Shown: in pieces, positions 18,679 through 38,435 of the stretch
Numbering within the stretch: position 1 is the first letter of the stretch
How the letters are laid out: every line of letters starts with the position of its first letter
DNA from: Pelagibacteraceae bacterium
Lineage (GTDB): Bacteria; Pseudomonadota; Alphaproteobacteria; HIMB59
Length of the DNA stretch: 49,421 nucleotides
Assembly (NCBI GenBank): GCA_008638215.1
Contig: VTPN01000007.1
Coordinates: forward strand, 1 to 49,421
Reading direction: 5' to 3'
Notes under the pieces: generated by a model
What the model was told of the DNA's origin: nothing
Seen by the model: only the letters and a program-made list of their open reading frames with translations
The model's database searches: none
Program-made: the position numbers and the translations under genes

Positions 18679-20473
18679 TAACTTTATCTAATATATCCTT
18701 AATATTTTTTGAATTTAAACCTTTTATTTGTCTCAATTCCTCCTTGGATGCTTGCTTGAGATTTTGTATATTCCCAAAAAAATTGATCACTCGCATTTTT
18801 TTAATTTTTCCAATTCCACTAATACCATCAAGGAAACTTGTTTTCATGGAGTCAGACATTCTCTTTAAACTATTTTTTTTAGATAGATTATGAGCTTTAT
18901 CTCGCATTTTTTGAATAAAACCCTCAATTTGAGGATTTTCTTTTAAAGACAAATTTTTTTGTTGAAGTGTATGATATCGATCAAAACGAAAATCTCTTTT
19001 ATGGCCTTTGGTAACCCCTAAAAGTAAAATATCCTCTGTTATTCCATTTTTCTTCAGAATTTCTTGGCAGATTTTTAGGTAAGGAACACCCCCATCAATA
19101 ATAATTATGTCTGGCAAGATTTTATCATCCTTGGAGAATCGGGAATCAAAAACCCTTCTCATTAAATCCGCATCACCAAATTTTTTCAAATCGAAATCTT
19201 TGAATTTATAAGTTCTAGAATCTCTTATGCTGAAACCATCTGAGTTAAAGACAACATAGGAGGCCACTGCATAATTATTACCATAAAAGCTATTATCATA
19301 AGCTTCAATTCTTTCAATTGGGGTTTGTAGTTGAAATCGATTTCTAACCAAATCTAATATTTCATTATTTGTGTTATATTTTTGTTTTTGAATCAGTACC
19401 TCCTTGTCGTTCTTTTTCTTAGTAAGATTAGAAATTTGTCTTATTCCAGGGATTGAGTTATTTTTTAAAAATATATCTATTTGATAATTATCTTTCATAA
19501 TTGATTTTAGTTGGTCATATCCATTAATTTTTTTTGATAAAATAATTTTTTTTGGACGAAAACTTTTAATATAAAACTGTATTAATAGAGAAGAGATATC
19601 TAAATCTTCCTCAATTTTTTCAGAAAAATATATTAAGTTTCCACCTAAATAGCGACCATATCTTACAAATCCAATAAAAATAGATAGATTGTCTTTACTA
19701 TTAATATGAATATAGTCATAGTTTGTATCTTGACTGCTAATTTTAATCTCTTCCCTTATGATATAATTTAAAGATTGAAGACTATCTCTCAATTCAGCAG
19801 CCTTTTCATAATTTTGATTTTCACTAAAATCTAACATTTGTTTTTCTAACTTATTAAAAATACTTTTTTGATTTCCTTGAAAAAATTTTAACGTGTCATT
19901 AACTTGCATTTCATATTCTTCTTCTGATACTTTATTAACACATGGTGCAGAGCATTGTTTAAGGTCAAACAGTAAACAAGGGCGCTTTCTATTTCTAAAT
20001 TCAAGGTCCGTGCAACTTCTTAATCTGAATGATTTCTGCAGTATTTTTATTACTTTATCGGTCTTGAGTGCAGAAGTGAAGGGTCCAAAAACCCTATCAT
20101 CCTTATGGAAATCATTTCTAAAACGAGTTAATCTTGGAAACTGATCATTGGTGATTTTGATTAATGGAAAACTTTTATCATCTTTGAGTCTAATATTATA
20201 CCTGGGTGAAAATTTTTTAATTAGTAAGGCCTCTAATAAAAGTGCGTTTCTCTCAGACTCAGTTAATTCAAAGTCAATATTGACGGTTTGAGAAACCATT
20301 TTTTGAAGTCTTCTTGGAAGCTTTGGTAAATTCCCGTAATTAGAAAGCCTTCTTCTAATATTGATGGCTTTTCCAATGTAAATAGGCAAATCCTTTTTGT
20401 TTTTAAATAGATATACACCAGAACTTTGGGGCGCCTCTTTTATTCTTTTTTTTAGAATTTCGAGGCCGATCAT
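18671..20473 (-). CDS. uvrC: Excinuclease ABC subunit C
   Basis: Dual-incision nuclease of nucleotide excision repair. The N-terminal GIY-YIG domain makes the 3' cut (SSGVYLF about 17-23, IYIGKAINIRRR 31-42). The UVR motif NYEKAAELRDSL (about 218-229) binds UvrB. The RNase-H-like domain makes the 5' cut (IEAYDNSFYGN and IIIDGG). A C-terminal helix-hairpin-helix pair (GISGIGKIKK, then IKGLNSKNI) binds DNA. The length of 600 aa is normal. It heads the uvrC-pgsA-moaDE operon and is divergent from speD. uvrB is also in this window. Confidence 0.97.
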   Translation of the reverse strand: MIGLEILKKRIKEAPQSSGVYLFKNKKDLPIYIGKAINIRRRLSNYGNLPKLPRRLQKMVSQTVNIDFELTESERNALLLEALLIKKFSPRYNIRLKDDKSFPLIKITNDQFPRLTRFRNDFHKDDRVFGPFTSALKTDKVIKILQKSFRLRSCTDLEFRNRKRPCLLFDLKQCSAPCVNKVSEEEYEMQVNDTLKFFQGNQKSIFNKLEKQMLDFSENQNYEKAAELRDSLQSLNYIIREEIKISSQDTNYDYIHINSKDNLSIFIGFVRYGRYLGGNLIYFSEKIEEDLDISSLLIQFYIKSFRPKKIILSKKINGYDQLKSIMKDNYQIDIFLKNNSIPGIRQISNLTKKKNDKEVLIQKQKYNTNNEILDLVRNRFQLQTPIERIEAYDNSFYGNNYAVASYVVFNSDGFSIRDSRTYKFKDFDLKKFGDADLMRRVFDSRFSKDDKILPDIIIIDGGVPYLKICQEILKKNGITEDILLLGVTKGHKRDFRFDRYHTLQQKNLSLKENPQIEGFIQKMRDKAHNLSKKNSLKRMSDSMKTSFLDGISGIGKIKKMRVINFFGNIQNLKQASKEELRQIKGLNSKNIKDILDKVNE

Positions 20474-20568
20474 TTGTTTATTTTACATATATTATATAAA
20501 TCGCATAAAAAATATTAGTGAATTTTCTTATAAACTAAATATATTTTAAATTGTTGATACCAGATAGC

Positions 20569-20633
20569 TATTCTCTGTAACGAATACACAGGTGTCGGTA
20601 TTCCCTGTGATGAATACCTCTATGATACGAGGT
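20569..20633 (+). promoter_or_regulatory. Structured 5' leader of speD: candidate translational riboregulator
   Basis: Four elements are seen directly. (1) Two copies of an 18-mer, ATTCTCTGTAACGAATAC (20570-20587) and ATTCCCTGTGATGAATAC (20600-20617), 15/18 identical and 30 bases apart. (2) A 7-bp hairpin GGTATTC/GAATACC (20597-20603, 20612-20618). (3) CACAGG (20587-20592), which can pair with CCTGTG (20604-20609) in that hairpin's loop, a pseudoknot order, although the 2-base linker makes full co-formation sterically doubtful. (4) A 5-bp hairpin ACCTC/GAGGT (20616-20620, 20629-20633) that hides the Shine-Dalgarno GAGG (20629-20632), 5 bases before ATG, and shares 20616-20618 with hairpin 2, so the two exclude each other. 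This suits translational switching; the ligand is unknown. The rest of the gap (20474-20568) is A+T-rich with no clear motif. Confidence 0.55.
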
Positions 20634-20637
20634 TAAA

Positions 20638-21018
20638 ATGACACAAAAACATAAACACTTGATTGTTAGAGCAGATATTGGATGGACTCCAAATGAGGAA
20701 GATTTAAATAAAATTTCTGATTGGATAAGATCCTTGATTAGAAAAATAGAAATGAAGTTATTAGCCGGACCTTATACTACTTATGTTAATGAAAAGGGTA
20801 ATAAAGGTATGACTTCAGTTGCGATTATTGAAACTAGCCATATTGCACTTCATATTTGGGATGAAACAAATCCAGGATTGATGCAGTTAGATGTCTATTC
20901 ATGTGCAGATTTTGCTCCTCAGGATGTTTTTGATCAAATAGAAAAAATGTTCGATACTAAAAAAATCGAATATAAGTTTCTTGATCGAGAAAAAGAATTA
21001 GTGGAGGTTAAAATTTGA
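20638..21018 (+). CDS. speD: S-adenosylmethionine decarboxylase family proenzyme (pyruvoyl-dependent)
   Basis: Small self-cleaving decarboxylase. Canonical members make decarboxylated SAM for spermidine synthesis. The 126-aa length and KHLIV start fit the bacterial class. The processing region reads IETSHIALHIWDE: Ser67 (future pyruvoyl) and His68 are kept, with His72 further on, but the residue before Ser67 is Thr66, whereas the family usually has Glu-Ser-His. LDVYSCA (85-90) supplies the catalytic Cys89. Start ATG 20638 follows GAGG, which lies inside a hairpin. No speE is adjacent; ald follows 2 bases after the stop. Some SpeD homologs are reported to have become ornithine or arginine decarboxylases, so the substrate should be considered open. 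Confidence 0.82.
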   Translation: MTQKHKHLIVRADIGWTPNEEDLNKISDWIRSLIRKIEMKLLAGPYTTYVNEKGNKGMTSVAIIETSHIALHIWDETNPGLMQLDVYSCADFAPQDVFDQIEKMFDTKKIEYKFLDREKELVEVKI

Positions 21019-36998: not shown

Positions 36999-38435
36999 TT
37001 TATTATCTGCAATTATTTTAGCTATTCGAAGCGTATTTGTTGTTCCAACTTTTCCAAAAGGAACACCGGCTGTGATGATTATTTTTTCACCATTCTTTAA
37101 AATTTTACGAGTTTTAGCGACCCTACAAGCTCTATCAACCATTTCAGTGGAGGAAGAGATTTCATCTACAACATCCATGAAGGTTCCCCAAGTTAAAACA
37201 TTTTGACGAGCCACTTTGGAGTTTGTCGTCAAGCCAATTAAAGTAACGTCAGGTCTCATTCGAGCAACTCGAAGGATTGACCTTCCTGATTGCGAGAAAG
37301 TGGCAATACAATTACAACTAGCAATACTCGCCACTTCTAATGCTGCCGTTGCTATCGCTTCAGTCGATGTTTTGGTGTGATCAAGATTATAGTTTTGGAT
37401 ATTTGCTAAGTATTTTGTATCACTCTCGACTCTTTTTATAATTTTATCCATCATTTCAACGGCCTCTTTTGGGTAGCTCCCAGCCGCGGACTCAGCAGAT
37501 AGCATGACGGCATCGACTCCTTGGAACACCGCTGTAGCAACATCTGAGGCTTCAGCACGAGTAGGAGTGGGAGAGTCAATCATGCTCTCTAACATTTGAG
37601 TTGCAACGATACAAGGACGCCCAAACTTTCGACAAGCGGCCACCATCGTTCTTTGATGGATTGGAACATCTTCAGGATTGGTTTCAACACCTAGGTCACC
37701 TCTAGCTACCATTATTCCATCACAGTTTTCGGTGATCGACTCAATTTCATCCATTGCAGAAGGTTTTTCTACCTTTACCATTACTTTAAATTTAGAAGGG
37801 ATTAATTTTTTTGCTGTGAGTAAATCTTTGGTGGTTTGAATAAAAGACAGGGCAATCCAATCAACATCTAGTTTGATAGCAAGTTGAAGATCTTTTTTAT
37901 CTTTGGGTGTAATAATTTTTAAATCAAGTTTAGTGTCGGGAATATTTAATCCCTTATTATTTGAAATTTCCCCACCATCGGTAACTATGCATTTAATTGT
38001 AGTAGGTGATTTAGATTTTACTTTTAACCGAACTTTCCCATCATTAACGAGGAGTCGCTGGCCTACGGAAATTGATTTAAATATCTCTTTATGAGGCAAA
38101 TAAACTCTTTTGTTATCTCCATCTTTTTTATTTTGATCAAACGTAAATTCTTGATTTTTTTTTAATTGTTCTTTGACATTTGAAAATTTACCAACTCGAA
38201 ATTTTGGACCTTGGAGATCGCCCAAAATACAAATGAAATGATTATATTTTTTTTCTAATTTTCGAACTATTTTAACTTTATTAATATGATCCTCATGCGA
38301 TCCGTGACTGAAGTTTAAACGAAAGACATCAACCCCAGCTAAGAATAGCTTTTCGATAGTTTCTTCAGTTTCGCAAGCGGGTCCAAGCGTAGCGACAATT
38401 TTTGCTCGTCTATTTCTTAATTTTAACTGATTCAT
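36990..38435 (-). CDS. pyk: Pyruvate kinase
   Basis: Converts PEP and ADP to pyruvate and ATP. RAKIVATLGPA at the N-terminus, VFRLNFSHGSHEDH, LGDLQGPKFRVG, MVKVEKPSAMDEI (catalytic lysine region), MVARGDLGVE, VATQMLESM (preceding PTPTRAEASDVA) and the C-terminal VPFGKVGTTNTLRI are all conserved. 481 aa is normal for the bacterial type. It lies opposite aspC and divergent from DUF1244 (39-base gap 38436-38474, A+T-rich with no clear motif). Confidence 0.97.
   Translation of the reverse strand: MNQLKLRNRRAKIVATLGPACETEETIEKLFLAGVDVFRLNFSHGSHEDHINKVKIVRKLEKKYNHFICILGDLQGPKFRVGKFSNVKEQLKKNQEFTFDQNKKDGDNKRVYLPHKEIFKSISVGQRLLVNDGKVRLKVKSKSPTTIKCIVTDGGEISNNKGLNIPDTKLDLKIITPKDKKDLQLAIKLDVDWIALSFIQTTKDLLTAKKLIPSKFKVMVKVEKPSAMDEIESITENCDGIMVARGDLGVETNPEDVPIHQRTMVAACRKFGRPCIVATQMLESMIDSPTPTRAEASDVATAVFQGVDAVMLSAESAAGSYPKEAVEMMDKIIKRVESDTKYLANIQNYNLDHTKTSTEAIATAALEVASIASCNCIATFSQSGRSILRVARMRPDVTLIGLTTNSKVARQNVLTWGTFMDVVDEISSSTEMVDRACRVAKTRKILKNGEKIIITAGVPFGKVGTTNTLRIAKIIADNKLT

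Follow-up and report, generated by a model that had tools for sequence, protein, structure and literature searches.

A conserved leader with two predicted tandem pseudoknots, probably a new RNA switch, precedes a SpeD-like decarboxylase gene in HIMB59-type alphaproteobacteria

A contig of a Pelagibacteraceae bacterium of the HIMB59 order (49,421 nucleotides, the whole stretch analysed, hereafter the window) contains a speD-like gene whose short leader raises three questions: is it a structured regulatory RNA, does it belong to a known class, and what could it sense? A preliminary description had pointed to a near-duplicate pair of sequences, which is indeed present, as TATTCTCTGTAACGAATAC (20569-20587) and TATTCCCTGTGATGAATAC (20599-20617), with an offset of exactly 30 bases. 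The 7-bp hairpin that it proposed, GGTATTC/GAATACC, is found as well, and so are the segment CACAGG (20587-20592), which can pair with CCTGTG in the loop of this hairpin (20604-20609), and a second hairpin, ACCTC/GAGGT, which covers GAGG and shares bases 20616-20618 with the first one.

The description took the leader to be one pseudoknot. The knot of the second copy stands, but the single-knot architecture has to be replaced by a tandem pair, and the extent was incomplete: the first copy can form a pseudoknot of its own, by pairing of CAGA with TCTG, and since it also has an upstream CAG strand, the element starts at 20561 (Table 1). At all eight loci described below, the conserved block starts exactly at CAGATAG and continues into the start codon. 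The leader consists of two tandem copies of the unit CAGR-N4-(GG)TATTC-YCTG-N4/5-GAATAC(C), which is roughly 28 nt long: CAGA-N4-TATTC-TCTG-N4-GAATA in unit 1 (20561-20586) and CAGG-N4-GGTATTC-CCTG-N4-GAATACC in unit 2 (20589-20618). Both units are capable of folding into an H-type pseudoknot, in which S1 is the CAGR/YCTG stem and the 5' strand of the other stem, S2, directly abuts the 3' strand of S1. The anti-Shine-Dalgarno hairpin and the last three pairs of S2 in unit 2 are mutually exclusive.

Table 1. Positions of the leader elements and of the downstream gene in the window
Feature	Position	Strand	Remarks
Whole conserved leader	20561-20637	+	77 bases, from CAGATAG to the last base before ATG
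Unit 1, predicted H-type pseudoknot	20561-20587	+	S1 and S2 pairs kept in 7 distinct leaders
Unit 1 S1, CAGA/TCTG	20561-20564/20574-20577	+	
Unit 1 S2, TATTC/GAATA	20569-20573/20582-20586	+	
Unit 2, predicted H-type pseudoknot	20589-20618	+	Pairs kept in 7 distinct leaders
Unit 2 S1, CAGG/CCTG	20589-20592/20604-20607	+	Here extendable to 20587 and 20609
Unit 2 S2, GGTATTC/GAATACC	20597-20603/20612-20618	+	
Anti-Shine-Dalgarno hairpin, ACCTC/GAGGT	20616-20633 (20616-20620/20629-20633)	+	In all 7 distinct leaders
Shine-Dalgarno, GAGG	20629-20632	+	5 bases 5' of ATG; conserved in all leaders
AdoMet_dc-family (SpeD-like) pyruvoyl decarboxylase, 126 aa	20638-21018	+	PF02675, E 3.5e-16

This arrangement is rarely obtained by chance: two adjacent H-type pseudoknots arise only once when the leader is shuffled 3000 times with its dinucleotides preserved, and the unit pattern has two matches in the window, both in the leader, and none in 100 shuffles. 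The folding energy of the leader is not significant (z between -0.6 and -2), so that support for the structure is comparative. Elsewhere in the window, on either strand, a tandem of H-type pseudoknots is geometrically possible at one site only (38136-38203, minus strand), probably by chance.

A covariance model (R1) was built from four leaders and searched in 162 genomes of the HIMB59 order. It matches eight loci in seven genomes (the genome studied here and six others), which belong to two families; these HIMB59-type alphaproteobacteria are mostly represented by single-cell or metagenome genomes. The leader precedes an orthologous speD-like gene at seven of the eight loci, the remaining copy being upstream of an EamA transporter gene, and the downstream SpeD-like proteins are 80-91% identical among distinct genomes. 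A model of the single unit, searched in the same 162 genomes, returns only the 16 known copies and three weak matches, which apparently lie inside housekeeping coding regions and were discarded. Among 385 sampled genomes of the class, the model finds the leader only in the genome studied here, and a pattern search of 84,980 species genomes finds tandem leaders only in records of the HIMB59 order; the lone-copy matches in that search were judged to be due to chance. More distant speD homologues (62-67% identity) in three genomes of the genus have no leader. A leader is also missing from the two pelagiphage speD genes that were inspected, whose 5' ends lie within the ORF before them, and the viral speD loci searched do not match the leader model. 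In viral contigs, the matches to the unit pattern fall within coding sequence and are apparently fortuitous, and those to the tandem pattern score poorly with the leader model.

Conservation in homologous leaders had been set beforehand as the test of the initial idea, and the leader is conserved. The eight known loci all come from one bacterial order and diverge little; the alignment comprises seven distinct leaders. With one near-identical genome pair left out, leaders are 79-94% identical, whereas identity is 50-71% at synonymous codons and 36-57% in the 60 bp directly upstream. That the leaders exceed both synonymous codons and upstream DNA in identity indicates that the leader is under purifying selection, and has not simply been transferred recently.

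The distribution of the variable columns follows the predicted structure: 2 of the 40 paired columns vary, compared to 12 of the 19 unpaired ones (Fisher p = 3e-6, which is indicative only, as alignment columns have a common ancestry). Both variable paired columns show a U-A to U.G change that retains pairing, a single such change affecting the pairs of unit 1. When the partners are slid by 1-3 columns, pairing drops from 100% to 30-51%. The loops tolerate a 1-nt change in length; the helices do not. The two units differ from each other by one compensated change in S1, whose fourth pair is A-U in the first unit but G-C in the second; it is to be counted as a single event shared by descent. We also looked for covariation in the stems singled out by the preliminary description; the pairs are kept, but classical covariation is almost absent. 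There is practically none between species, since every pair of S1 and most of those of S2 are invariant in the seven distinct leaders, which are too similar to each other. The alignment thus argues strongly for the conservation of the strands and hints, weakly, at their actual pairing. No upstream ORF is conserved between genomes that could code for a leader peptide. These observations support the initial view that the leader is conserved and structured, and that it has two hairpins that cannot form together, one of them masking the Shine-Dalgarno.

The copy that precedes the transporter gene is found in MED-G104, whose second leader lies between a tRNA-Asn gene and the gene of the EamA-family transporter (L015:1500-1587). 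In 29 other genomes of the genus in which this locus was read, the transporter gene starts almost directly 3' of the tRNA gene and there is no copy. The segment in MED-G104 carries the Shine-Dalgarno and the speD-like codons ATG ACA CAA, which are fused in frame 5' of the transporter's own ATG, and TATAAT is present 5 bases upstream of it. It has diverged from the speD copy in MED-G104 at around a dozen positions and retains all the pairs of both knots, one as U.G. Judging from these features, this leader looks like a module that has been moved into place.

Other neighbours of the speD-like gene were recorded. In AG-319-D07, another EamA transporter gene is divergent from it and has no leader copy of its own (L025:1429-2298). 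In AG-457-A08, the gene that follows it codes for a protein with a histone-deacetylase fold (L023:3613-4653), a family that includes acetylpolyamine amidohydrolases.

Regarding the known RNA classes, the leader matches no Rfam family at either gathering or permissive thresholds, the sole match being a spurious microRNA (E 6.6). The preliminary description had seen no full match to SAM-II or SAM-V, and the covariance models agree: with E values up to 10 allowed, the SAM-II model hits neither the two segments of the window searched (91 and 227 bases) nor the six homologous loci, and the SAM-V and guanidine-III models do not hit the leader either. The SAM-clan models do not match the leader, and there is no terminator-like site in 20400-20700. 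The leader falls outside all Rfam families, SAM-II and SAM-V included. A literature search, which covered few subscription papers, returned no description of it. The leader probably represents a novel kind of RNA switch that has yet to be characterised.

The comparison with these classes is nevertheless informative. SAM-V, SAM-II and guanidine-III are translational switches made of an H-type pseudoknot (PMC6061858). Like SAM-II and SAM-V, the leader is compact, would place an H-type pseudoknot directly 5' of the start codon, would cover the Shine-Dalgarno in one state and occurs in marine alphaproteobacteria (PMC6061858, PMC2704228). Unlike them, it has two tandem copies, the hairpin over its Shine-Dalgarno is not part of the knot but would compete with the latter, and the downstream gene does not belong to methionine metabolism. 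Guanidine-III is reported to be an ON switch (PMC6061858), which is the polarity that we predict for the leader, but the latter is tandem, has different strand sequences and gives no Rfam match. The spermidine riboswitch, a SAM-I variant found upstream of polyamine genes in Gram-positive bacteria (PMC10853860), also sits 5' of polyamine biosynthesis genes; however, it has a SAM-I fold and is an OFF switch that acts by transcription termination, whereas the leader has another fold and no terminator. Last, two aptamer-like units in front of one gene are also seen in tandem riboswitches (glycine, the two-hairpin guanidine-II, SAM-II/SAM-V), whose unit type and sequence are unrelated to those of the leader.

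What the switch may sense depends on what the downstream gene encodes. The preliminary description considered a SAM or amino-acid decarboxylase, and the former assignment is probably incorrect. The protein scores 53.5 bits with TIGR03330, below the cut-off of 75.65, and it has HIWDE where solved AdoMetDCs show HTWPE. According to a study of this family (JBC 2023, PMC10407285), a Pro near the catalytic His is fully conserved in true AdoMetDCs and is not conserved in arginine-decarboxylating homologues; we read this residue as the Pro of WPE. On this reading, the SpeD-like protein lacks both marks of a class 1b S-adenosylmethionine decarboxylase, this Pro and a score above TIGR03330. Its nearest phage homologues are pelagiphage proteins (42% identity to that of HTVC201P and 49% to that of HTVC103P), and the SpeD of HTVC201P decarboxylates arginine, but not ornithine or lysine (PMC9992855). 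The genome studied here, which is 92% complete, contains no spermidine synthase above the cut-off, no member of the arginase/agmatinase family and no homospermidine synthase of the deoxyhypusine-synthase type. It encodes one Orn_Arg_deC_N protein, whose gene adjoins an argininosuccinate-lyase-like gene in the relatives inspected (L101, L103, L106 and L108) and which we read as lysA.

The absence of the Pro, the low score, the likeness to pelagiphage proteins and the missing spermidine synthase make the decarboxylation of SAM for spermidine unlikely. The product is probably not a true SAM decarboxylase, and the plain speD label is probably wrong; an amino-acid decarboxylase appears more likely, which may act on arginine, like the pelagiphage enzyme, or on ornithine. 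SAM, the obvious ligand at first sight, was set aside, since the enzyme seems to have acquired a new function and the genome has no spermidine synthase that passes the cut-off.

We lean, with somewhat better than even confidence, towards the idea that the leader acts in cis as an RNA switch for the translation of the SpeD-like decarboxylase. It has what is generally expected of a riboswitch, namely a conserved leader with an alternative fold able to sequester the Shine-Dalgarno, the pairing being deduced from conservation. The anti-Shine-Dalgarno hairpin is found in all leaders, with 4 to 7 bp (four in the eamA copy) and a loop whose sequence varies freely. Its calculated stability (-5.5 to -7.3 kcal/mol) comes close to the -7.5 to -8.2 kcal/mol obtained for S2 of unit 2 alone.

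In the mechanism that we propose, the two units of about 28 nt would fold as H-type pseudoknots in the cell. GAATACC, the 3' strand of unit 2, and ACCTC, the anti-Shine-Dalgarno strand, have ACC in common, so that completion of the second knot would prevent the hairpin from forming and leave GAGG free (the ON state), while opening of the knot would let ACCTC pair with GAGGT and block translation (the OFF state). The polarity in which the knot is the ON state is therefore the one that we favour. S2 of unit 2 ends 18-19 nt before the ATG at every locus, that of eamA included, and a position 18-19 bases before the ATG is near the edge of the region covered by the 30S subunit, so that the folded second knot may be compatible with initiation. 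The competition between knot and hairpin may be graded rather than all-or-none, since S2 would still have four pairs after the opening of its three outer ones. A small molecule would set the balance between the two, and the presence of two copies would suit cooperative binding.

The same conservation of RNA structure would apply equally if the leader were bound by a protein, be it the decarboxylase itself in an autoregulatory loop, a ribosomal protein or another RNA-binding protein, the two copies being two sites beside the Shine-Dalgarno. Duplicated small knots next to a start codon suit a protein site, and the bases conserved in the loops (UAG, A/AA) might be where it makes contact, but the leader serves eamA in one genome, which does not point to simple autoregulation, and no candidate binding protein is known; we regard this explanation as unlikely. 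The structure could also be one that senses no ligand (an RNA thermometer, an mRNA stabiliser or the target of a small RNA). A hairpin of moderate stability over the Shine-Dalgarno (-5.5 to -7.3 kcal/mol) suits a thermometer; however, neither HtrA_thermometer nor the other Rfam models match the leaders, and such a function would not account for a pseudoknot unit that is duplicated and conserved, with strands that do not vary, which makes this the least probable of the explanations considered here.

At the DNA level, the main rival is that the palindromes GTATTC-N8-GAATAC are operators in tandem, some 30 bp apart, to which a dimeric transcription factor binds, and that RNA pairing is incidental. 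Such operators would be compatible with the near absence of covariation; the half-sites are conserved and their spacing is near three helical turns. On the other hand, the half-site spacer of the first copy is 8 bp in some leaders and 9 in others, and conservation is asymmetric, CTG keeping to one side and CAG being upstream in every case. It also extends to the anti-Shine-Dalgarno strand, the Shine-Dalgarno and the fixed distance to the ATG, and the transplanted copy took along the Shine-Dalgarno and the first codons. We consider operators to be still less probable than a protein-binding RNA, though not as improbable as a structure without a ligand.

Returning to the translational RNA switch, if it is indeed an ON switch, its targets, an amino-acid decarboxylase and a transporter, make a basic amino acid or a guanidino compound (arginine, ornithine or agmatine) a more natural ligand than SAM. 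It is also possible that a polyamine end product is the ligand, with the opposite polarity. The full proposal, a new riboswitch class whose tandem mini-pseudoknot aptamers respond cooperatively to an amine or a basic amino acid (arginine, ornithine, agmatine or a polyamine), drawing the anti-Shine-Dalgarno strand into the knot to turn translation ON, is more tentative than the existence of the switch, and we put it forward as a possibility about which doubt prevails.

If the leader is a riboswitch, few natural aptamer units would be as small as its own, and it would extend by one sensor the short list of RNAs known to control polyamine or basic amino-acid metabolism. Its hosts are abundant, streamlined ocean bacteria that seemingly lack the usual polyamine enzymes, and the apparent transfer of the leader to another gene shows how RNA regulons can grow.
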